Positions 33,691 through 51,077 of a stretch of DNA of 64,000 bases are shown piece by piece. Source of the DNA: Pseudomonadota bacterium. GTDB taxonomy: Bacteria > Pseudomonadota > Gammaproteobacteria > Competibacterales > Competibacteraceae. How positions within the stretch are numbered: position 1 is the stretch's first letter; each line of letters begins with the position of its first letter. A program made the position numbers and the translations under genes. The stretch covers positions 62,001-126,000 of the forward strand of contig JAKLIY010000001.1 of NCBI GenBank assembly GCA_022709365.1, read 5' to 3'. The notes beneath the pieces were generated by a model. That model saw only the letters and a program-made list of their open reading frames with translations, had not been told where the DNA came from and made no database searches.

Positions 33691-33996
33691 TCAATTCCCC
33701 TCTCCTCTTGAGGACGAGGGGGTGAGCGGCGCGCCGGACTCCCTGGAAAGGGTAGGAGTCCGCCGCCGCCGGATGGACGGTCGGTCGACTGCTGGCGCAG
33801 TTCTGACCCGCGCCTGGCGCAACCAGCCGAGGACGCGACGCTCGACCGCATCCTGACTAGCCGGCGATAAATCCCGGAAAATCAATGCCCCGACACCGAG
33901 CAGCAGGGTCAATCCGCCTAGAAAGGTGACCAGCGGTTGCATGAACGCAATGGATAGAACCGCCAGGAGCGCGAGCAGAATATGTCGGATTTTCAA
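33691..33996 (-). CDS. Small membrane protein coupled to the PP2C phosphatase
   Basis: About 101 residues from a TTG start at 33996, preceded by GGGAGG at 6 bases. The protein begins KIRHILLALLAVLSIAFM and has two hydrophobic helices (about residues 4-20 and 22-41), then a basic tail that runs into a repeat-like palindrome, so the true C-terminus may be recently extended. The TTG overlaps the phosphatase TGA (TTGA), showing tight coupling. I do not recognise the family. It could anchor or modulate the phosphatase, which is inferred from coupling only. Confidence 0.55.
   Translation of the reverse strand: MKIRHILLALLAVLSIAFMQPLVTFLGGLTLLLGVGALIFRDLSPASQDAVERRVLGWLRQARVRTAPAVDRPSIRRRRTPTLSRESGAPLTPSSSRGEGN
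33697..33721. repeat. Imperfect palindrome CCCCTC-n-CCTC...GAGG-nn-GAGGGG
   Basis: Two stem segments (33697-33702 with 33716-33721, and 33704-33707 with 33710-33713) with an asymmetric bulge lie between the ydcH-like gene and the convergent small membrane protein. Such CCCTCTCC/GGAGAGGG palindromes are often dispersed repeats. It may act as a bidirectional terminator, though no U-tract follows. The last codons of the minus-strand gene read through it. Confidence 0.45.
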
Positions 33997-34991
33997 GAAG
34001 CGCCTCCCGCAGAGTCCTTGGGCCGGGTGAGTTTGCGCACAAGAATGACCGTACAATTATCATCCGGTTGGCATTGTTGCTGGCGGATGATGATCGCCAG
34101 TTCGGCCAGCAAGTCATCAAGGAGTTCCTGGAGCGTCCGATGCGGTTGCGCCAACAGCATTGGCCATCGCCGGATAAACTCTTGCGGATAATGCAGATGC
34201 CAAAGGCCATCACTGGCCAGCAGGTAGACCGAATCGGGTTCCAGCGTCAGGGAGCGACGGTCGTTCAACCCGCGCAAAAACAGGGGCAGATTGCCATCAT
34301 GCAGTTCATAAAGCTCCTCATCAATGGTATCCGCATAGAGATTCGGCGTGCCCAGGGTGCTGCCCAAAATGAAGGCCTGACTAATTTGGGAACTGGTCTG
34401 GGCATGGACTTGCTGCAACCATTGGGCGCTGTCCAGCAGGCCTAGCAGGGCGAGGTGAGTAGCGGGTACGTGGTCTATCGTCAGGCACTGCACATGGTGG
34501 GCGTCAATGGCGTAGACGCGCGAATCGCCCACATGGAACAACAGCCCAGGGGAACGAGGCGGGATTTCGAGTAGAATGAGCGTACAACCGGTTTCCAACC
34601 CCGCCTGTTGAAATTCTTGATAAAGCCGCCGATGCAGGAGATTCAACTCATTGGACAGTTGAGGGAGTTCGGCAATAGCCGGCAGTTCGAGCAGCCCCTC
34701 GACCGCTTTTTCGGAGGCTTCCCGTCCGTGGCTGTGACCACCCATACCATCAAGCACCGCCAGTCGCCGGTGTCCATGCGGCCAGCCTGTGAGTTGCAAC
34801 CGGGTTTCCTGTTCACGCCAGAGGAACTGGGCGCAACCTCGGCCGTCAATCAGTAAAAAATTATCCTGGTTTTCCTTGCGCCCGTGGCCGGTCGGTGAAA
34901 GCAGCGAGCGCACAGCGATCTCCAGTTGGGGACCGCGACAGGACGATGCGCGATGATGCGCCGCGTTTGAGATAGAAGAGTGAGTATGCAT
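33993..34991 (-). CDS. PP2C-family Ser/Thr protein phosphatase
   Basis: A 332-residue PPM/PP2C phosphatase. Metal-binding motifs are in order: RKENQDNF, LDGMGGHSHG, FHVGDSRVYAID, LASDGLWHL and the last DDNCTVILV. It should remove phosphate from Ser/Thr of proteins. It is divergent from the pseudokinase gene at 35187 and only about 3 kb from an active kinase, so it is a candidate antagonist. A longish N-terminal tail of about 25 residues precedes the domain. Confidence 0.92.
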   Translation of the reverse strand: MHTHSSISNAAHHRASSCRGPQLEIAVRSLLSPTGHGRKENQDNFLLIDGRGCAQFLWREQETRLQLTGWPHGHRRLAVLDGMGGHSHGREASEKAVEGLLELPAIAELPQLSNELNLLHRRLYQEFQQAGLETGCTLILLEIPPRSPGLLFHVGDSRVYAIDAHHVQCLTIDHVPATHLALLGLLDSAQWLQQVHAQTSSQISQAFILGSTLGTPNLYADTIDEELYELHDGNLPLFLRGLNDRRSLTLEPDSVYLLASDGLWHLHYPQEFIRRWPMLLAQPHRTLQELLDDLLAELAIIIRQQQCQPDDNCTVILVRKLTRPKDSAGGAS

Positions 34992-35186: not shown

Positions 35187-37883
35187 ATGGATATCGAAAC
35201 GCGTCTTGAGGAACTTGCGCAGGCTTATGCCGCTGGCCGTCTGAATGAAGCCGAGCTGGCGCGTCTTCAAGAAGAAGCTCTGCGCGTGGTGGCAGGCGAT
35301 GATGACCATGCACGGTTGTCAGAAAGCGACTTATCCAAGGGAGAAGGCGATTCAGGAGGATCGCCAGCGGCTCCGGGAACGTTGACGGCTGGGCGGGTGA
35401 TTGGCCCTCCCGAACGGCAGATGCGATTGGTGCATGATCTCAGTGGTCGAGGACGCATCTGGTTAGCGCACCCCGCTTTGTCTTCGCGGGACGGCGGCGA
35501 AACTGCTGACGAATTCCGGGCCATCAAAATTTTTCTGCCCGCCGGTTACGAATCAGGTTCAGCGGATCCAGCGCGCGACGAACGAACGTCGCGGGCGGAT
35601 TTGATCGGCTTGCGTTCCTATCTGGCCAAGGTCAGGGCGCGGGTCGAGTTGGCTATGAAACTCGATCATCCCGTGATCGCCCGTATCCATGGCTGGCGAC
35701 AAGGTTCTGATGGGTGGCCATTTGCCGAAATGGAATACCTCAACCCTCATCACGGTCGCAGCCTGGCGCAACTGCTTAAAGAGCAGGGAGGGGATGGGCT
35801 ATCCTGGGAGACGGTCGGAAAATGGTTGCGTCCAGTCGCGGCCGCTCTGGATTACGCGCGCCGTGAACATCGACTGGCCCACCAACATCTCGATGTGGAC
35901 ACCATCTTCGTTACTGATCAGGGAACAGTTCGATTATTAGGCTTTGGTTTAGCGGCTGAAATCCGGGAACCACGCAGTGTTCTGTTTAGCACCGGCAGTT
36001 CAGGGCGCGAGGCCGCCGGGGAAGGGGCGATCGAGTCGGTCGCCGCTGAAACGACCTTTCGCCGCGATGTCTTCGCCCTAGCGCTGTTGGCGTATCGGTT
36101 GCTGGCCGGGCGCAGTGCCCAGGAAGCCCAGGGCCAACCGCCAGGGGCGGTGCCGCGTCCTCCGGGGTTGACGGACGACGCCTGGCAGGTTTTGCGGCGC
36201 GGGTTGGCGTACCCGAGTGAACTGTGCCCGACCGATGCCGGCCAGTTCATTCAGGCACTGGACGCCGCGCAACGGCCAGCGATAGCGTCGTCAGGCCGCG
36301 GTTCCCTGCCAAAGTGGACTTGGGGTCCGGCGGTCGGCCTGGCCCTGGCGGTTGGTTTGGGCGTCTATTGGTTCAGCACACCCATCAACCAGGGAACCGA
36401 GCAGATCAACCCCGAGGGCGTTGCTGGACCGCCCTCATCTGGCGAGCCGGAGCGAGGGACGACCACGCCGGCGGATGCACCGATCGACGAAGGCGTTGCG
36501 TTACGGGAAGCCGAACGTGAAAGCGATCAACGGGCTTTCGAGGCTGCCCGCCGGGTCGATACGGCCGCGGCTTACCAGATGTATTTGCAACGCTGCCCGC
36601 AGTGCGGCTATGGCAAGGATGCGCGAGTCGCGATCAAGAGCCTGGAAACCCGAAAAAAAGTTGAAGCACTTAAGGCGGATTTTGCAGCGCTGGCCGCAGC
36701 GCTGGAGGAAGGACGCGAGGAGCGCGGCAACGAGGCGCTGTCTCGTTTGGATGCGCTGGCGGCGCTGACGCCGGATGATCCGTTGATCGCTGCGGGTCGG
36801 CAACAATTAGCGCACAGTTGGGTGAAAATGGCGTTGACCAGCCTGAACAAACCCGACCCGGACGGGGCGCGCAAATGGTTGAAAAAGGCGGAAGCCATCC
36901 AACCGGAATTACCGGAACTGGTCGCACTCAATCAAGCGCTCAAACAGGCCGAAGCGGCTGAACAGGTCAAGCAAACCGATACTGAAGCGTTCGCCGCTGC
37001 CCGGCGCACTGACACTCGCCGGGCCTACTGGGCCTATCTCGACCGCTGTGCGACGGGTTGCCACCATCGCCCCGAGGCCGAAGCGGCCCTCGCCCGAATG
37101 GCGCCCGCCTATCCCGTGTTGCGCGACCGGCTGAACGATGGTTCACAGGGGCCGGAAATGGTGGTGATTCCAGTCGGTGAATTCCAGATGGGATCGCCAC
37201 CCTCCGAAATCGGTCGTTACAGCGATGAACCCACACGAGTGGTGCACATCGCAAAATCATTCGCGATCGGCAAGTATGAAGTGATGTTTCACGAATACGA
37301 CCGGTTTGCGACAGCGACGGGAAAGCCTTTGCCGGCCGATCATGATTGGGGGCGCGGTCGACGGCCAGTGATTAATGTGGACTGGAAAAACGCTGCAGCG
37401 TATGCCGAGTGGCTGTCTCAGCAGACCGGCCAGCGCTATCGTCTGCCGACCGAAGCGGAGTGGGAGTACGCAGCGCGGGCCGGAACGACGACCAGTCGCT
37501 ATTGGGGCGACGATCCGAATGAAGGTTGCGCCTACGCCAACGCTACTGATCTGGACGGCAAAAAAGTGTTTGTGGGCTGGACGGTCATGCAATGCCACGA
37601 TGGCCAGGTCTATACAGCGCCGGTAGGCAACTATCGGAACAATGAGTTCGGTCTGTATGACATGGCAGGCAATGTGCTTGAATGGACTTGCTCCATTTAC
37701 GACAAGGAATCGAAGACGCCGGCGCAGCGTTGCCAGGAGCCAGGTGGCGACCAGGAAATGGTGGTGCGCGGCGGCTCCTGGAGCGACGAGCCACGCAACG
37801 TGCGTTCCGCTGACCGGCATCGCAGCCGTCCAGAATTCCGGGATTACTTTTTGGGATTCCGGCTGGTTCGGGAAGGACCCTGA
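35187..37883 (+). CDS. Transmembrane pseudokinase with FGE-sulfatase-like domain
   Basis: An 898-residue protein. Residues about 65-360 have the order of a Ser/Thr kinase domain, with the ATP-binding Lys in FRAIKIF. The catalytic loop reads HQHLDVDTI where HRDLKPxN is expected, and the metal-binding DFG reads GFG, so the catalytic Asp, the loop Lys and Asn, and the DFG Asp are all missing. One transmembrane helix (about 374-392) follows, then two copies of an ARRxDTxxAYxxYLxRC motif (about 450 and 600) flanking a helical region, then an FGE-like domain (about 650-898) with LPTEAEWEYAARAG and RGGSW but no catalytic Cys pair. It may be a ligand-binding scaffold or regulator for the active kinase downstream. 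Confidence 0.85.
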   Translation: MDIETRLEELAQAYAAGRLNEAELARLQEEALRVVAGDDDHARLSESDLSKGEGDSGGSPAAPGTLTAGRVIGPPERQMRLVHDLSGRGRIWLAHPALSSRDGGETADEFRAIKIFLPAGYESGSADPARDERTSRADLIGLRSYLAKVRARVELAMKLDHPVIARIHGWRQGSDGWPFAEMEYLNPHHGRSLAQLLKEQGGDGLSWETVGKWLRPVAAALDYARREHRLAHQHLDVDTIFVTDQGTVRLLGFGLAAEIREPRSVLFSTGSSGREAAGEGAIESVAAETTFRRDVFALALLAYRLLAGRSAQEAQGQPPGAVPRPPGLTDDAWQVLRRGLAYPSELCPTDAGQFIQALDAAQRPAIASSGRGSLPKWTWGPAVGLALAVGLGVYWFSTPINQGTEQINPEGVAGPPSSGEPERGTTTPADAPIDEGVALREAERESDQRAFEAARRVDTAAAYQMYLQRCPQCGYGKDARVAIKSLETRKKVEALKADFAALAAALEEGREERGNEALSRLDALAALTPDDPLIAAGRQQLAHSWVKMALTSLNKPDPDGARKWLKKAEAIQPELPELVALNQALKQAEAAEQVKQTDTEAFAAARRTDTRRAYWAYLDRCATGCHHRPEAEAALARMAPAYPVLRDRLNDGSQGPEMVVIPVGEFQMGSPPSEIGRYSDEPTRVVHIAKSFAIGKYEVMFHEYDRFATATGKPLPADHDWGRGRRPVINVDWKNAAAYAEWLSQQTGQRYRLPTEAEWEYAARAGTTTSRYWGDDPNEGCAYANATDLDGKKVFVGWTVMQCHDGQVYTAPVGNYRNNEFGLYDMAGNVLEWTCSIYDKESKTPAQRCQEPGGDQEMVVRGGSWSDEPRNVRSADRHRSRPEFRDYFLGFRLVREGP

Positions 37884-38128: not shown

Positions 38129-40111
38129 ATGATCAAAAAATCCAATACGCTGCCGGTTGGTTATCGTCTGCATCAGTACCGTATTGAATCGGTGCTGGGT
38201 GCGGGCGGTTTCGGGATTACTTACATGGCGGTGCATGAAGCGCTGCGGACCCGGGCGGCCATTAAGGAATATTTTCCGGTGGAGTGGTCTTATCGAGACC
38301 GCGATGAGGTCAATGTTCTGGCCAATACCCAGGGCGGCTTGCCGACCTCGGAGGCCGGCGAAGATGCTTGCTATACTTGGGGGCTGGAGCGCTTTCTCAC
38401 GGAAGCCCAGACCCTGGCCCAAGTCAATCACCCCGGTGTGGTACGAGTACGGGACTTCTTTGAGGCTAACGGCACCGCCTATATCGTCATGGACTATGAA
38501 GATGGGGAACCGCTAAGCCAACTCCTGCAACGGGAGAAGACCTTACCGGAGATGCCGGTTCGCCGGTTGATCGAGGATGTGTTGCCCGCTTTGGACGCTG
38601 TACATGCCCTGGGCTATCTGCACCGCGATATTAAACCCGCCAATTTGTACCGCCGCTCGGACGGTCGGACCATTTTGATCGATTTTGGCGCAGCCCGCCA
38701 AGCGCTGGGACGGCGTAGTAAAAGCGTGACCAGTGTGTTTTCACCAGGCTATTCGCCGATTGAGCAGTATCTGGTCGATGGCAAGGGCTATGGTCCTTGG
38801 ACGGATATCTATGCCCTGGGTACGGTGTTGTACCATTGCGTGACCGGGGTGGCGCCGATCGAGGCGCCAGCGCGCGTCCTCGACGACCCTCTGCAACCGA
38901 CCGAAGAACTGGCCGCCGGGCGCTACAGCCCGGTATTGTTGCGGCTGATCGACCGGGCCATGGCGGTTCGTCCCGAAAAGCGGTTTCAGACCATCGCTCA
39001 GATGCGGGCGGCGTTTGAAGAACCTTTGGCGAACGACGATGAGCGTACTGTCAAGCTGGAATTGCCGTTGCGTCCGGATTTGCACCGCAGCGGCGAAAAA
39101 CCGCGACTGGCGGCGGTGGGCGAACTGATTCAGGAGCCACACAAACTACCCCCTCCTTCGCTGTTTCAGCGACTGGGGCAATATTGGCGGATGGTGGGCG
39201 GACTGGCGCTGGCCGTTCTGGTCGCTGGGGGAATAGTAGTCTGGATAATGCAGACACCGGTCGATCAACCGACGGAGACTCCACAAACGACTCCGCCCGT
39301 TCAGCCAACGGTGAGTAGACCACCTGCCAATCCTCAACCAGGGCAGATTTACACCGACCCGACGACAGGAATGGAACTCGTCTGGATTGCGCCGGGTTGC
39401 TTCAACATGGGCAGTCCGGAAACCGAACGGGACCGCAGCGCTAATGAGACACCTCATCAGGTTTGCCTCAAGGGGTTCTGGATGGGCAAGACTGAAGTGA
39501 CTAACGCCCATTACCGGCAATTTGAGGGCGGCCATGATAGTGGCGCCTATGAATCCTACAGTCTGAACGCGCCCAACCAGCCGGTCGTCCGGGTCAGTTG
39601 GCAGGAGGCGGTTGCTTACGCCGAATGGCTGTCGGGCAAGACTGGCCTGCGTTATCGTCTGCCAACCGAAGCAGAATGGGAATACGCCGCGCGCGCCGGT
39701 CAGACCGGTTCCCGGTACTGGGGCGATGATCCGAATCAGGCTTGCCGTTACGCCAACATCTACGACGAAACCGCCCGCCGGGCGAAGCCGCTCAACTGGG
39801 CCAATTATCCCTGTCAAGATGGTCAGGTCGCCGCCGCGCCAGTCGGACAGTACGCGGCCAATGCCTTCGGCTTATATGATCTACTAGGCAATGTTGCGGA
39901 ATGGACCTGTTCCGAATACGACAGCGCTTATGCGGGTGGTGAAACCCGCTGCGCCGACCCGAAGGCGACCGCCAGTGGTCGGCGAGTGCTGCGTGGCGGG
40001 TCCTGGTCCGATTATCCGGGACTGGTGCGATTCGCCTACCGGTTTCCCACCGTGCCGGAGTACGGCAAGTGGCGGTCCGATATCGGATTTCGCCTGGTGC
40101 TGGAACCCTGA
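38129..40111 (+). CDS. Transmembrane Ser/Thr protein kinase with FGE-sulfatase-like sensor
   Basis: A 660-residue protein with a complete Hanks-type kinase at the N-terminus: glycine loop GAGGFGITYMA, AAIKEYFP, catalytic loop LHRDIKPANLY and IDFGAAR, so it should be active. A short linker leads to one transmembrane helix (about residues 355-375, GGLALAVLVAGGIVVWIM) and a periplasmic FGE-like domain (about 415-660) with LPTEAEWEYAARAG, GLYDLLGNVAEWT and RGGSWSDYPG. The Cys pair of real formylglycine enzymes is absent. The pseudokinase lies upstream and a secreted PEGA protein starts 26 bases downstream, so ligand sensing at the cell surface with cytoplasmic phosphorylation is likely. Confidence 0.93.
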   Translation: MIKKSNTLPVGYRLHQYRIESVLGAGGFGITYMAVHEALRTRAAIKEYFPVEWSYRDRDEVNVLANTQGGLPTSEAGEDACYTWGLERFLTEAQTLAQVNHPGVVRVRDFFEANGTAYIVMDYEDGEPLSQLLQREKTLPEMPVRRLIEDVLPALDAVHALGYLHRDIKPANLYRRSDGRTILIDFGAARQALGRRSKSVTSVFSPGYSPIEQYLVDGKGYGPWTDIYALGTVLYHCVTGVAPIEAPARVLDDPLQPTEELAAGRYSPVLLRLIDRAMAVRPEKRFQTIAQMRAAFEEPLANDDERTVKLELPLRPDLHRSGEKPRLAAVGELIQEPHKLPPPSLFQRLGQYWRMVGGLALAVLVAGGIVVWIMQTPVDQPTETPQTTPPVQPTVSRPPANPQPGQIYTDPTTGMELVWIAPGCFNMGSPETERDRSANETPHQVCLKGFWMGKTEVTNAHYRQFEGGHDSGAYESYSLNAPNQPVVRVSWQEAVAYAEWLSGKTGLRYRLPTEAEWEYAARAGQTGSRYWGDDPNQACRYANIYDETARRAKPLNWANYPCQDGQVAAAPVGQYAANAFGLYDLLGNVAEWTCSEYDSAYAGGETRCADPKATASGRRVLRGGSWSDYPGLVRFAYRFPTVPEYGKWRSDIGFRLVLEP

Positions 40112-40137
40112 ATAGGCCGGCTGATGGAGAGAACGCC

Positions 40138-42297
40138 ATGAGCAAGACCGTAGTAAAAGGTTGGGGATTGGCGCTGGCGTGGATGCTGGCGCTGGTGTGG
40201 CCGGCCGCTTTTGCGCACGCTGCTGCGCCCGAAGCGCGGATGAATGTGGCGGTCGTCGAATTCAGCGTCATGGGCGATATGCATGAGCAAGCAGGCGCCA
40301 TTATGGCTGATTTGATGATGTCGGCCATCGCCAATAGCGGGCGCTTTGTCCTCAAGGACCGGTTATCGTTGTCCGCCGTATCCAAGATCGCCAAGGCCCA
40401 GGACCAGGAACTGGGCTATACCGGACTGCTTGACCCCAGGACCGCTGCCGATCTGGGCCAGCGATATGGTTTGGACGCTGTGGTGATCGGGGCGGTCAGT
40501 AAGCCGGGCGACCTGATTACCGTTACGGCGCGATTGATAGATACCAAAACCGCCTCCTTGCTGCGCAGTGGCCAGATTCAGGGCAAGGATATCGATACCA
40601 TCCAAGTGAAGGTCAATGAACTGGCGGCGATGATTACGGCACCGCCCGAACCGCCCCGAGCCCACGGATTGACAGTGCGTACCGAACCGTCGAACGCCAG
40701 TGTCCGGTTGCTGAACAGTCCAATGCCGTACCAGCCGGGCGTCCGCCTGCCTCCTGGCAACTACGAGATTGAAGTCGGTCAATCCGGTTATGCCCCCCGC
40801 CGGGAATCGGTAAAAATCGTCGACCGTGATGTCACTGTCACCGTGACGCTGGACAAAGCTAAATATGGTTTGACGGTGCGCGCTGAACCGGCGGACGCGC
40901 AGATCCGCTTGCTGGACGCTTCGCTCACCTATCGACCCGGCGTGGAACTGACGCCCGGCGATTATCAGATCGAAGTGGTGAAGGAGGGCTATGTCTCCCG
41001 CAAGTTTCCAGTGCGGATTATCGACAGCACATTGACGGTTCCCGTGACACTGGAGAAACAACCGCCGCCGCCGCCCCAGTATCGTTTAACCGTGCAGACC
41101 GATCCTCCCCAAGCGACGGTTCGATTACCGAACGTCAAAACTCCCTATCAACCGGGAGTAGTGCTGGCACCGGGTAACTATACGGTCGAGGTGAGCCAGC
41201 CCGACTATGACACGCAGCGCGTGTCAATCAATATCGTGAATAGTGATGTGACCGTACCCGTGAAACTGGTCAAATCGCCTGAACCGGTCAAGCCGTCCCA
41301 GTATCGATTGACGGTTCGCCCCGATCCGTCGACCGCCAAGATACGACTGCTGGGGGTGAAAACCGCGTACAAACCGGGAGTAACACTGACTCCAGGCAGT
41401 TATACGGTCGAGGTGAGTCAAGCCGGTTATGAATCAAAACGGGTGTCGGTGCGCATTGCGGATAGCGATGTGACCGTGCCGGTGACGCTGGTCAAGGCGC
41501 CTGAACCTCAGCAATACCGGTTGACAGTGCGGGCCGATCCAGCGGATGCCCAAGTGCGTTTATTAGGAACCCGCACAGCGTATCGAGCGGGTGTAGCGCT
41601 GGCACCGGGCAGCTATACAGTGGAAGTTTCCCGGTCGGGTTACGACGCGCAGCGATTGACGGTACGGATCGCAGACAGTGACGTGACCGTGCCGGTGGCG
41701 CTGGCGAAGCAGCCCGAGCCGGTGAAGCCCACTGAGTATCGGTTGACGGTGCGCACCACACCATCGAGCGCCCGGGTGCGGTTGGTCAATTCCCCTTTCA
41801 CCTACCGTCCCGGTGTATCCCTGCCGCCCGGCAACTACACGGTCGAGGTGAGTGGGCGCGGTTATGAGACCCAGCAGAAGTCGGTGCGGATAACTGACGG
41901 TGATGTGACGGAATCCATCGCTTTGGAACGGGAACGGGTTACTACGGTAACCACCCCCACGCCGCCCCCCCAGCCTCCGGCGCGGCCCGGTGCCTGGCGG
42001 ATCGGTTCGGTGCAGGTGGACGGCTCGATCAGTGGCGCGGATCGCTCCGAAGTGCAGCGGGTGCTCAACCGCTATATCGGGCAGACCGCAACCCGCGATA
42101 GCCTGCTGGACAGTGCGATGCAGGTCTATCGATCCACCGGAATCACCCTGAATTTCGCGGTGCGGAATTCAGCGTCAGGATCGGCGGAATTGTCCGCACG
42201 GGTTAGCCAGCGGCAGCGGCGCACATACGAAAGTTCGGTACCGCTGGTAACTCGTGGTCAACTGGAAAGCTCGGGGTTCGGGGTGTCGGTTGACTAA
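40138..42297 (+). CDS. Secreted protein: CsgG/FlgO-like domain, six PEGA repeats, POTRA-like C-terminus
   Basis: A 719-residue protein with a signal peptide (GWGLALAWMLALVWPAAFAHA). Residues about 33-165 resemble the CsgG/FlgO/LpoB-like fold (NVAVVEFSVMGDMHEQAG ... YGLDAVVIGAVSKPGDLI). Six PEGA-like repeats of about 67-74 residues follow; each has LTVRxxP, a YxPGVxLxPGxYxxEV core and a DVTVPVxL end. The last 100 residues (WRIGSVQVDGSISGADRSEV) resemble a POTRA-like domain. The start at 40138 follows GGAGA. It is very likely co-transcribed with the kinase and may interact with its FGE-like domain in the periplasm; that partnership is inferred from adjacency. No lipobox or outer-membrane barrel is present. 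Confidence 0.85.
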   Translation: MSKTVVKGWGLALAWMLALVWPAAFAHAAAPEARMNVAVVEFSVMGDMHEQAGAIMADLMMSAIANSGRFVLKDRLSLSAVSKIAKAQDQELGYTGLLDPRTAADLGQRYGLDAVVIGAVSKPGDLITVTARLIDTKTASLLRSGQIQGKDIDTIQVKVNELAAMITAPPEPPRAHGLTVRTEPSNASVRLLNSPMPYQPGVRLPPGNYEIEVGQSGYAPRRESVKIVDRDVTVTVTLDKAKYGLTVRAEPADAQIRLLDASLTYRPGVELTPGDYQIEVVKEGYVSRKFPVRIIDSTLTVPVTLEKQPPPPPQYRLTVQTDPPQATVRLPNVKTPYQPGVVLAPGNYTVEVSQPDYDTQRVSINIVNSDVTVPVKLVKSPEPVKPSQYRLTVRPDPSTAKIRLLGVKTAYKPGVTLTPGSYTVEVSQAGYESKRVSVRIADSDVTVPVTLVKAPEPQQYRLTVRADPADAQVRLLGTRTAYRAGVALAPGSYTVEVSRSGYDAQRLTVRIADSDVTVPVALAKQPEPVKPTEYRLTVRTTPSSARVRLVNSPFTYRPGVSLPPGNYTVEVSGRGYETQQKSVRITDGDVTESIALERERVTTVTTPTPPPQPPARPGAWRIGSVQVDGSISGADRSEVQRVLNRYIGQTATRDSLLDSAMQVYRSTGITLNFAVRNSASGSAELSARVSQRQRRTYESSVPLVTRGQLESSGFGVSVD
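40669..41935 (+). repeat. Six tandem PEGA-coding repeats
   Basis: Repeat units begin at about 40669, 40870, 41086, 41308, 41521 and 41743, so spacing is 201-222 bases. Units 3-6 are most alike, pointing to stepwise duplication from that end. All units stay in frame. Confidence 0.85.
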
Positions 42298-47439: not shown

Positions 47440-49368
47440 ATGATTATGGCTCAACCAACCACGCCTTCCAAGAGCGGCGCCCGCCGCGCCAACGCGCTGC
47501 CGTCTGCCTGCCTTTTGGATGAGTACCGCATCGACTCTATTCTGGGTGCGGGTGGTTTCGGTGTGACTTATAAGGCGCTGGATACTCACCTGGAGACTTG
47601 GGTCGCTATCAAGGAATATTTCCCGGTTGAATGGTCGTTCCGCGATGCGGATGGCGTCACGGTTCACCCCAACACTCAAGGCGAGACCAGCGGCCCCGAA
47701 GGACAATTATCGGACTATCTCTGGGGGTTGGAACGCTTTCTCGATGAAGCGCGGGTGCTGGCACGAGTCCAGCATCCCTATGTAGTTCGGGTAAAGCGCT
47801 ATTTCCGGGCGCACGGCACCGCCTACATCGTGATGGAATACGAGGAGGGCGAACCGTTAAGCGCAGTCCTGCGCGATGGGGAAACACTCGGTGAGGACGA
47901 GGTTCGCGGCCTGCTCGAAGATGTACTCCCGGCGCTGCAAGCTGTTCACGAACAAGGCTATTTGCACCGCGATATCAAGCCCTCCAACCTGTATGTCCGC
48001 TCCAGCGATCATCGGGTGATTCTGATCGACTTTGGCGCGGCGCGGGAGGCGGTGGGTCGGCACAGCAAAAGTGTGACCAGCCTGGTGACGCCGGGCTATT
48101 CACCGCCCGAACAGTACACGACCCGTAATGACCGCTACGGAACCTGGACCGACATTTACGCCCTCGGCGCAGTGCTGTACCGATGCATCACCGGCCGCAC
48201 CCCAACCGAAGCGGCTGAGCGGCTACTGGATGACACTCTGGAACCGGCAACCAAAGTGGGCGCTGGTCGCTACAGTACTAATCTTTTAGAGGTGATTGAC
48301 CGGGCGTTGGCGGTGCGTCCGGAACAACGGTTTCTTACCGTGGCCGATATGCAAGCAGCGCTGGCCGGTCCGCAGGACGAGAACAGCAGCCAGACGGTGA
48401 TCATGATGCCATTGGCCAAGCCGGTTAAACTGGCGCAGCCGCTGGGAGCATCACCAATCACCCGATATCCAGAAACGGCGACGGAAGAATCGGATGAGGA
48501 CCATCAGCATAACGGGTTGAATATGACGCAGGCACCAACCACCGCCAATTCTCGGTTGGCTGGGCAACCACAAAACTTCCTGCACGCATCGCCGCAAGGC
48601 GGAACAGCCGTCCGATGGCGGTTGCCGGTCATATTGGCCGGTGGTGTGGCGTTGATGGCGGCGGCGGCGGCGATTGTGTGGCTCGGATCATCCGAACCGG
48701 TCCCGGAGCGTGCGCCGGTTTCGGAACAGAAACCGCCGCCCCGCTACAGCCTGAATCCGGCGGGGGGAACCCCCACGCCAACTGGTGAGGCCCCGGCTGC
48801 CGGGACTGCGCCGCCGACGGGCGCGACGCCAGAGGCCACGACGCCTGCTCCTCGTGAGGCGGTCGTTGAATCCCCGACTCCGATGGAAAAGAACGTAACC
48901 AGTCCACCGACTCCGGTGGAAGCACCGGTTGCCGAGGGTGGATCGGAACCGTCCGGTTCAGGAAGCCCTTCTCCAGAGACGAAGGGTCTGGAAAAGCCGC
49001 CGGTTGCCGGACCGGGTCAGAAACCGATGGATACGGGAGAAATGCCGGAAGCAGCCCATTCGGAAAGTGCGCCGTCCGGTGCGACCAGCGTACCAGTGCC
49101 TGGCTTGGCTCCTGCCGTGACCACTAAGCCACCGGCTGATGCGTCAGCCGGACAGACAGCCAAGACATTTGCGGGCCAGAAGCCCCAGGCGAGCGACGCC
49201 AAACCACCGCCGAAACGACCCACACGGCAAAAAACCGTCCAGAAGCGCAAAGAACAACCGATCGTTGTTGCGCCTGCCCAGCCAGTTCAGGCGCGGCCAA
49301 CACCGGCTGCGCCGAAGCGCAGCAATCTCTGGGATGCGCCCACTGACTCGGGGTTCAATCAAAAATGA
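47440..49368 (+). CDS. Transmembrane Ser/Thr protein kinase with Pro/Thr-rich C-terminus
   Basis: A 642-residue protein. The kinase domain (about 25-290) is complete: GAGGFGVTYKA, VAIKEYFP, LHRDIKPSNLY, IDFGAARE and TPGYSPPEQY. A transmembrane helix follows at about residues 389-409. The rest (about 410-642) is low-complexity Pro/Thr/Ala/Glu-rich sequence with no FGE domain, unlike the kinases at 3 and 38129. The basic end (KRPTRQKTVQKRKEQ) could contact cell wall or polyanions. It heads an operon with two FHA proteins and a PP2C; the FHA gene overlaps its stop (ATGA). Confidence 0.92.
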   Translation: MIMAQPTTPSKSGARRANALPSACLLDEYRIDSILGAGGFGVTYKALDTHLETWVAIKEYFPVEWSFRDADGVTVHPNTQGETSGPEGQLSDYLWGLERFLDEARVLARVQHPYVVRVKRYFRAHGTAYIVMEYEEGEPLSAVLRDGETLGEDEVRGLLEDVLPALQAVHEQGYLHRDIKPSNLYVRSSDHRVILIDFGAAREAVGRHSKSVTSLVTPGYSPPEQYTTRNDRYGTWTDIYALGAVLYRCITGRTPTEAAERLLDDTLEPATKVGAGRYSTNLLEVIDRALAVRPEQRFLTVADMQAALAGPQDENSSQTVIMMPLAKPVKLAQPLGASPITRYPETATEESDEDHQHNGLNMTQAPTTANSRLAGQPQNFLHASPQGGTAVRWRLPVILAGGVALMAAAAAIVWLGSSEPVPERAPVSEQKPPPRYSLNPAGGTPTPTGEAPAAGTAPPTGATPEATTPAPREAVVESPTPMEKNVTSPPTPVEAPVAEGGSEPSGSGSPSPETKGLEKPPVAGPGQKPMDTGEMPEAAHSESAPSGATSVPVPGLAPAVTTKPPADASAGQTAKTFAGQKPQASDAKPPPKRPTRQKTVQKRKEQPIVVAPAQPVQARPTPAAPKRSNLWDAPTDSGFNQK

Positions 49369-49718
49369 AATTCAATCTATGGCCTTTTTCACGCCAACGG
49401 CGTGAATCGATGGAAACGGTGCCGGCTCGGGCGCGGTTTATCCGTACTGACTCGGTAGGCAAAGGTGAGTTGCGTCTGCGTTCAGCCTTATGCCGACTGG
49501 GTCGGGCGCCGGAAAACGATATTAGCTTTGATAATGATTCGGTTTCCGGACGTCACGCTGAAATTTACTACCTGCCCGACGGATCGTTCCAGATTTGTGA
49601 TGTTGGATCTACCAATGGCACTTGGGTGAATGGACAAAGGATCCAAAGCCAGCTTCTTAAAAATGGTGATGTGGTGGAATTAGGCGAAGTACGCCTGCAC
49701 TTCCGGGTCGGCGATTAG
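49365..49718 (+). CDS. FHA-domain phosphothreonine-binding protein
   Basis: A 117-residue protein made almost entirely of one FHA domain. The binding residues are canonical: LGRAPENDISFDN (Gly-Arg), SGRHAEIYY (Ser-x-x-His) and STNGTWVNG (Asn). It should read phosphothreonine marks, probably made by the kinase encoded immediately upstream, whose stop it overlaps (ATGA). Its small size suggests an adaptor rather than an enzyme. Confidence 0.92.
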   Translation: MKFNLWPFSRQRRESMETVPARARFIRTDSVGKGELRLRSALCRLGRAPENDISFDNDSVSGRHAEIYYLPDGSFQICDVGSTNGTWVNGQRIQSQLLKNGDVVELGEVRLHFRVGD

Positions 49719-49733
49719 GTCAAGAGAGGGTTC

Positions 49734-50246
49734 ATGCCGCTTTATCGTGGTTTTAAAAAAGGGAGTTCATCCCCGAGTCCGCCCGTTGAACCCACCCGGC
49801 GTATCGCCCGTTCCGAATCGGCGAATCGATCCCGTACCGATGGACTACCGGCTACCGAACCATCGGTGGCGGTTCCAGCCGCAACAATCCAGGATACGCT
49901 CTCCAAACTGGTGGTCGGCTGGCTGGTAGTGATTGCGGGTCCGGGACGAGGCCAAACGTTGCCATTGGGTTATGGGGTCAACGACATTGGGCGCGGCACC
50001 AGTGCGCGCATCCGGCTGGACTTTGGCGACGCCACGATTGCCGCCGAGAATCAAGCCGCCATTATTTACACCATGCGTTCCCGGCATTTCTATTTGCAAT
50101 CAGTCGCTGCGGAAACCTGGCTCAATGGGCGTCCGGTTCGGGAATCGGTCGAATTGAAAGGCGGCGAGACTTTACAGGTCGGGCAAACCCGTTTGCGGTT
50201 TGCGCCGCTGTGCGGCCCGGATTTCGACTGGTGCGCTGCTCACTGA
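49734..50246 (+). CDS. Degenerate FHA-like domain protein
   Basis: A 170-residue protein with a disordered N-terminal half and an FHA-like fold from about residue 62. The fold is recognisable by IGRGTSARIRLDFGDATI and WLNGRPV, but the SxxH motif is replaced by AENQA and the second Asn motif is altered. Phosphothreonine binding is therefore doubtful. It may pair with the canonical FHA protein, act as a structural partner, or bind another ligand. Ribosome site AGAGAGGG 3 bases upstream. Confidence 0.75.
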   Translation: MPLYRGFKKGSSSPSPPVEPTRRIARSESANRSRTDGLPATEPSVAVPAATIQDTLSKLVVGWLVVIAGPGRGQTLPLGYGVNDIGRGTSARIRLDFGDATIAAENQAAIIYTMRSRHFYLQSVAAETWLNGRPVRESVELKGGETLQVGQTRLRFAPLCGPDFDWCAAH

Positions 50247-50261
50247 CGCGGAGAGGGCGAT

Positions 50262-51077
50262 ATGGCGGTGTGGATTCATGATGAAGGCATGGCGCAAGGC
50301 AGCCGTTCCCGCCAGGAAGATGATTATGGAGTCTTTGAACTGCCACCGGAGCTGGGCGCAGGTGACCTGCTGCTGGTGCTGGCCGATGGCATGGGCGGCG
50401 AGCAGGGCGGCGCACGGGCCAGTGCCTTGGCAGTACAAAGCTTTATCGGAACTTACGACACGGTATCCGCGGCAACGATTCCCGAACGTCTTGGACGCAC
50501 CCTGACCCAGGTGAACGCGCAAATGGCGCTGGAAGCGGCCACCGATCCGGAAGAGTTGAACGGCATGGGTTGTACCTTGCTCGCGGTGGTGTTGGCTGAG
50601 GAAGGCCTGTACTGGATCAGTGTCGGTGATTCGCCGCTGTGGCTCTGGCGGCGGGGGCGGTTGCACCGTCTGAATCAGGATCACGCTTATCGCAGCATCT
50701 TGGCGCGCCAGGTCTCCATCGGCGAGATCAGCGCGGAGGCTGCTGCCCGGCATCCCGATCGTAATGCGCTGATGAGCGCGGTCACAGGCGACGATCTGGA
50801 TCTGGTGGATTTGCCGCATCAGGCCTACACGCTCCGACGAAGCGATCAGATTCTATTGGCGAGCGATGGCGTACTGACCCTGGATGAACAGGAGATTGCG
50901 GCGGTATTGGCAGATCGGCGGGTGGATGGAACACCCTGTCAGTCATTGCTGGCGGCGGTGGCGGCCCATGGGCGTCCGCAGCAGGACAATATCACCGTGC
51001 TATGGGCGCGTTCGGCAGCCTGTTCACCGAACGGTTCGTGGTGGCGTCGTTGGTGGGAGTTGTTGAGCGAAGGCTGA
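50262..51077 (+). CDS. PP2C-family Ser/Thr protein phosphatase
   Basis: A 271-residue PP2C phosphatase. The metal-binding sites are in SRQEDDYGVF, LADGMGGEQGGA, ISVGDSPLWLW, LASDGVLTL and QQDNITVLWA. It starts 15 bases after the FHA-like gene behind GGAGAGGG and closes a kinase-FHA-FHA-phosphatase operon, so it likely reverses phosphorylation by the upstream kinase. Its 3' end overlaps the convergent HAD phosphatase gene by 54 bases. Confidence 0.92.
   Translation: MAVWIHDEGMAQGSRSRQEDDYGVFELPPELGAGDLLLVLADGMGGEQGGARASALAVQSFIGTYDTVSAATIPERLGRTLTQVNAQMALEAATDPEELNGMGCTLLAVVLAEEGLYWISVGDSPLWLWRRGRLHRLNQDHAYRSILARQVSIGEISAEAAARHPDRNALMSAVTGDDLDLVDLPHQAYTLRRSDQILLASDGVLTLDEQEIAAVLADRRVDGTPCQSLLAAVAAHGRPQQDNITVLWARSAACSPNGSWWRRWWELLSEG

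Follow-up and report, generated by a model that had tools for sequence, protein, structure and literature searches.

A conserved membrane pseudokinase with an FGE-like domain in Competibacteraceae, probably a non-enzymatic partner of the adjacent intact kinase

Chlamydiae are known to have Ser/Thr kinases whose C-terminal domain is of the FGE/NirV (DUF323) type (PMC1262709), and a 42-family bacterial classification now includes GLW and other pseudokinase families, a pseudokinase being defined there by the loss of at least one of the β3 Lys, the HRD Asp and the DFG Asp (PMC12599244). Experimentally, bacterial pseudokinases are largely unexplored (PMC12599244). Here we describe a gene at 35187–37883 (+ strand) of a 64,000-nucleotide stretch of contig JAKLIY010000001.1 (the window) from a wastewater bacterium of the Competibacteraceae. 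Its product has the domain order of the chlamydial proteins, a kinase domain and then an FGE-like C-terminal domain, as does that of the neighboring gene at 38129, which belongs to the chlamydial type; unlike these, the 35187–37883 protein has a kinase domain devoid of HRD, DFG and Gly-loop motifs. Our literature search found no description of an FGE-fused pseudokinase, which may still exist.

The gene is an open, full-length frame of 898 aa encoding, in order, an N-terminal extension, a kinase fold, a transmembrane (TM) helix, a linker and an FGE-like domain. The kinase-fold domain (approximately aa 60–375; 35364–36311, + strand), predicted to be cytoplasmic, was examined with AlphaFold2, Foldseek and an orthologue HMM. 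AlphaFold2 returned a bilobal kinase fold (pTM 0.74, mean pLDDT 75, with model residues 202–225, after the GFG motif, below 50), for which the top Foldseek matches were the bacterial (mycobacterial) Ser/Thr kinases PknA and PknI (E ∼1e-11, TMt ≤0.76), and the orthologue HMM matched solved PknB-type kinases (best E 6.9e-18). Structure prediction, which the first-pass annotation had proposed as a check, thus recovered a kinase fold, and on these models the domain is a protein kinase fold despite its motif losses. The single sequence scored 29.6 bits against Pfam PF00069, slightly below the 31.7 cut-off, and slightly above the cut-off of PF07714; because the PF00069 score falls just short, routine annotation may label the product merely an FGE-like protein.

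C-terminal to the kinase fold lies a single hydrophobic, probably transmembrane, helix (aa 382–400; 36330–36386, + strand; Kyte–Doolittle peak 1.59), followed by a linker (36531–37094, + strand) that contains two similar segments (AFEAARRVDTAAAYQMYLQRC and AFAAARRTDTRRAYWAYLDRC) and is less conserved than the flanking domains. The FGE-like domain (aa 655–895; 37149–37871, + strand), predicted to be periplasmic, matches PF03781 at 1.6e-52; the hydropathy peak and this match agree with the initial reading that helix and FGE-like domain are both kept. Its segment RGGSWSDEPRNVRSA has no Cys, and the active-site Cys pair of a true formylglycine-generating enzyme, which that enzyme requires, is thus missing.

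Catalytic motifs were called by aligning the protein with intact kinases from the same genome, and were then followed through 28 Competibacteraceae copies (the window copy counted) plus one remote relative, L073. The family copies share ∼52–74% full-length identity with the window protein. The alignment bore out the motif substitutions first noticed in the raw sequence: HQHLDVDT replaces HRDxKxxN (aa 232–239; 35880–35903, + strand), with Q233 and D236 in all 28 copies and H234 in 27, the exception having Asn, and GFG replaces DFG (aa 252–254; 35940–35948, + strand), position 252 being Gly in 25 copies, Ser in three and never Asp. It also placed Lys114 (RAIKIF; 35526–35528, + strand) at the β3 position, in agreement with the proposed retention of the ATP-anchoring Lys (28/28 copies). 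Two further losses came to light, that of the Gly-rich loop (DLSGRGRIWLA for GxGxFG) and that of the αC Glu, replaced by Arg152 in every copy with four different codons in use (35640–35642, + strand). F253 and the αF Asp (Asp294, in helix F) are likewise invariant. The initial statement that all catalytic residues are lost therefore holds for the HRD and DFG Asp and is slightly overstated as a whole, since the β3 Lys and Asp294 remain. With the HRD Asp changed to His (Asn once) and the DFG Asp to Gly or Ser throughout the 28 copies, the family falls within the published definition of a pseudokinase (PMC12599244). Among 22 kinase-like matches in the genome, only this one has both Asp residues replaced; three atypical sequences (L158, L159, and L161) have Asp at both positions. 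The fold should be incapable of canonical Mg-ATP phosphotransfer, having lost its catalytic base, its Gly loop, its Lys–Glu bridge and both metal ligands. The GFG motif is also present in human CASK, which keeps its HRD Asp.

What the pocket retains bears on a different reading, in which Lys114 and Arg152 would hold ATP or some other anionic ligand in the absence of Mg, and the domain would signal this to a partner with no catalysis. The invariance of both residues speaks for such a switch, and metal-independent ATP binding via positive pocket residues has been described for human ULK4, a possible analogy, and proposed for the DLHK family (PMC12599244). Against it stand the missing Gly-rich loop and the loss of both metal ligands, and we regard it as the foremost alternative, though an improbable one.

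Compared with the pseudokinase families as they are described in PMC12599244, the protein by its motifs and layout fits none of GLW, DLHK, CP1, or ActPs2. It resembles GLW in being proteobacterial and in having a TM helix that follows a degenerate kinase domain, but GLW proteins have GLW for HRD and Leu or Trp for the β3 Lys, where 35187–37883 has HQH and Lys114. DLHK proteins keep the HRD Asp and the Asn and have no TM helix, whereas both residues are lost and a TM helix is present here. CP1 also has no TM helix and is linked to a COG3899 ATPase domain, in contrast to the TM helix and C-terminal FGE-like domain of 35187–37883, in which Pfam found no ATPase domain. In ActPs2 the β3 Lys has become Arg and the HRD Asp has become Asn, whereas here the Lys is kept and the Asp is replaced by His in all but one copy; ActPs3 differs in having members with VALT for VAIK (Table 1 of PMC12599244). 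YukC/EssB of type VII secretion is likewise anchored in the membrane and has a kinase fold whose motifs and Gly loop are degraded (PMC12599244), but the present gene row has no secretion genes, and the protein has an FGE-like outer domain and retains its β3 Lys.

The degenerate pocket is conserved. Several conserved residues are encoded by two to four codons, so conservation at the protein level exceeds that of the DNA, while the former HRD-loop Asn (position 239) varies among Thr, Met, Lys, Ser, Ala, and Val, indicating that just some of the former catalytic positions are fixed. In nine pairwise NG86 comparisons, the dN/dS analysis suggested in the first-pass annotation, ω of the pseudokinase domain was ∼0.10–0.16, against 0.03–0.05 for the kinase domain of the 38129 type, values that are rough for pairs in which dS is near or above 1. 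The gene is under purifying selection, weaker than that on the neighboring kinase, and its kinase domain evolves ∼3 times faster.

That the gene is a kinase on its way to being lost is hardly credible. The faster evolution of the domain and a changed frame toward the 3′ end in two copies (L052 and L058), within the FGE part, would favor decay; both copies come from draft assemblies, so the frame changes may be errors. On the other side, the kinase-domain frames are long and open in 28/28 copies, the substituted residues are conserved and ω is low, so decay is already contradicted by the sequences. Intact-motif homologues together with a sequencing error in this genome would have undone the initial reading; an intact HRD or DFG was found in 0/28 Competibacteraceae copies, and the same substitutions recur across assemblies. 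The same degenerate pattern in 28 copies from separate assemblies, together with ω, rules out chance, sequencing error and single-genome or recent decay. The first-pass proposal of selection for a non-catalytic role is in this respect well supported by the sequence comparisons, and the roles it named, allosteric partner and decoy, may both be considered. As a separate observation, the L066 (7692–10430) and L068 (6898–10026) copies differ by a dS of 0.01 in the FGE part and of 0.20–0.27 over the remaining gene, which suggests recent recombination of the 3′ end.

The high conservation of the substituted positions can be read in another way, as a new transferase site formed by His234, Asp236, Asp238 and Lys114 on a kinase fold, comparable to SidJ and SelO, kinase folds with acquired other activities (PMC12599244). 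However, SidJ repurposes ATP- and metal-binding residues, and 35187–37883 has lost the DFG Asp and the HRD-loop Asn; the conserved residues could equally be structural, and we consider a re-invented enzyme very unlikely.

The remote relative L073 is 41% identical over its full length and has HRHLKLEN, DFS, and a Lys at the αC position: the HRD Asp is lost while the Asn and the DFG Asp remain, an intermediate state that suggests stepwise loss, with the catalytic base going first and the DFG Asp and Asn later. This is one sequence, found away from the syntenic locus, and L073 could instead be a sister paralogue. A search of 274 genomes of the class with the remote relative gave, outside the family, just generic kinase matches (≤72.6 bits), and neither this nor a gene-order search found further L073-like forms; a plasmid search gave mainly FGE-domain matches, none over 80% of the protein. 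In a tree of kinase domains, the pseudokinases and L073 make up a separate clade at the end of a long branch, and the 38129 kinase clusters with other kinases of the same genome; with branches this long, exactly where the clade attaches is uncertain, but its separate placement rules out a recent duplicate of 38129. The FGE domains of the two proteins are 47% identical, so the similar layout may stem from domain sharing. The term paralogue, applied in the first-pass annotation, is therefore apt for the common layout and FGE domain and not for the kinase domain as a recent duplicate.

Downstream on the same strand, the gene at 38129–40111 (+ strand) encodes a 660-aa kinase-TM-FGE-like protein, the proposed partner, with GAGGFG, AAIKE, FLTEA, HRDIKPAN and DFG all present, so that its description as intact stands. 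Divergent from the pseudokinase gene is a PP2C-type phosphatase gene (33993–34991, − strand) with the metal motifs DGMGG, SDGL and DDN, and the conserved row ends with a gene at 40069–42297 (+ strand; start probably the ATG at 40138) for a protein with a CsgG/FlgO-like N-terminal part, PEGA repeats and a possible signal peptide, usually found 3′ of the kinase gene in relatives. In 26/26 loci where the contig reaches that far, an intact kinase-TM-FGE gene with conserved HRD, DFG and Gly loop lies downstream of the pseudokinase gene on the same strand, at a distance of 1–3771 bp, and the divergent PP2C gene is present in 24 of these. L052 and L060 have the pseudokinase and kinase and lack the divergent PP2C, with no close PP2C found in their genomes. 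Across 39 family genomes, 30 hold both kinase-like genes and seven hold neither; of the other two, G011 has the remote relative only and G002 (58% complete) a kinase fragment only. A PP2C relative (∼53%) occurs in two genomes that have neither kinase-like gene (G015 and G022), and two others (G013 and G032) have the pair and no close PP2C, so the association of the phosphatase with the kinase pair is not strict.

Because relatives keep near-identical replacements and stay beside an intact kinase gene, we think it probable that the product of 35187–37883 is a dedicated partner without enzymatic function, as opposed to the remnant of a broken gene. The link to 38129 put forward at first pass is borne out as synteny and co-occurrence, and from this gene linkage we infer the interaction itself. 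The shared kinase-TM-FGE layout favors the partnership. Several points weigh against it: the two genes, 246 bp apart in the window, may be transcribed separately, the pseudokinase domain evolves faster than its partner's, the evidence comes from one bacterial family, in which shared ancestry alone keeps neighbors together, and in 11 of the 26 loci ∼3.6 kb of MlaE/ABC/MlaD genes separate the pair.

In those 11 loci (L050, L053, L054, L055, L057, L058, L060, L061, L066, L068 and L069) the gap is ∼3.6–3.8 kb, and the examined gaps hold an MlaE permease, an ABC ATPase, MlaD and a TPR protein, domains checked in L050 and L055 and assigned elsewhere from gap length or similar ORFs. Their position directly downstream of the pseudokinase gene raises the alternative of a scaffold independent of 38129 that recruits another machine, such as the MlaE/ABC/MlaD system or the CsgG-PEGA protein, in the manner of YukC/EssB, a pseudokinase of the membrane whose role is structural (PMC12599244). 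The Mla-type genes are missing at this place in the other loci, the window included, while the kinase is always present, and no close MlaE relative was found in the window's genome; such a scaffold seems to us slightly less likely than the nucleotide-binding switch.

On balance we lean slightly toward a family-specific membrane pseudokinase selected as the non-catalytic partner of the 38129 kinase, acting as follows. The two periplasmic FGE-like domains would sense or bind the same environment, and the two cytoplasmic kinase folds would associate at the membrane, where the pseudokinase, as regulator or scaffold, would switch or dock the active kinase; the divergently encoded PP2C phosphatase would then reset the substrates. 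The topology, physical pairing, allosteric control, signal and substrates assumed here are putative. A more ambitious version, which we offer as a tentative and somewhat doubtful extension, is that of an undescribed pseudokinase family with a pocket rebuilt stepwise, whose members serve an active kinase of matching domain layout as its allosteric subunit, obligate and membrane-bound; the kinase/pseudokinase receptor pairs of eukaryotes would then have a bacterial equivalent. With a clear same-layout candidate partner, a phosphatase in the conserved row and an intermediate relative, the locus can serve to test directly whether such receptor pairs are used by bacteria and in what sequence catalytic residues were lost.

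Two other contexts were considered and set aside. PADLOC matches to defense systems (PD-T4-6, MkoA, and mad6) resemble unspecific hits to kinase domains and are weaker for 35187–37883 than for 38129; no defense partner was seen. FGE-subtype C-lectin domains occur in targets of diversity-generating retroelements (PMC10907252, PMC7159879), which the protein resembles in its FGE-like fold, here lacking the active Cys pair, and from which it differs in not being diversified. Its C-terminal segment is conserved among orthologues, and its similarity to the template repeat of this genome extends over only 58 bp, with differences at 6/11 adenines and 7/47 other bases, which rules it out as a retroelement target. 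The genome does carry such a retroelement (L111, G000:C141, 54–1625; L112, G000:C130, 42–1151), with an avd-like gene, a reverse transcriptase and the template repeat on one contig and an FGE-only target on another, the target differing from the template at 20/28 adenines and 12/94 other bases.

Further kinase genes lie elsewhere in the window. A second Ser/Thr signaling cluster at 47440–51077 comprises an intact kinase, an FHA protein and a PP2C phosphatase, the kinase domain being 60% identical to that of 38129. At the left edge, a kinase-FGE protein (24–2051; an 891-aa frame that extends left to about G000:C1:61430 and is cut at the window edge) has intact HRDLKPSN and DFG motifs.
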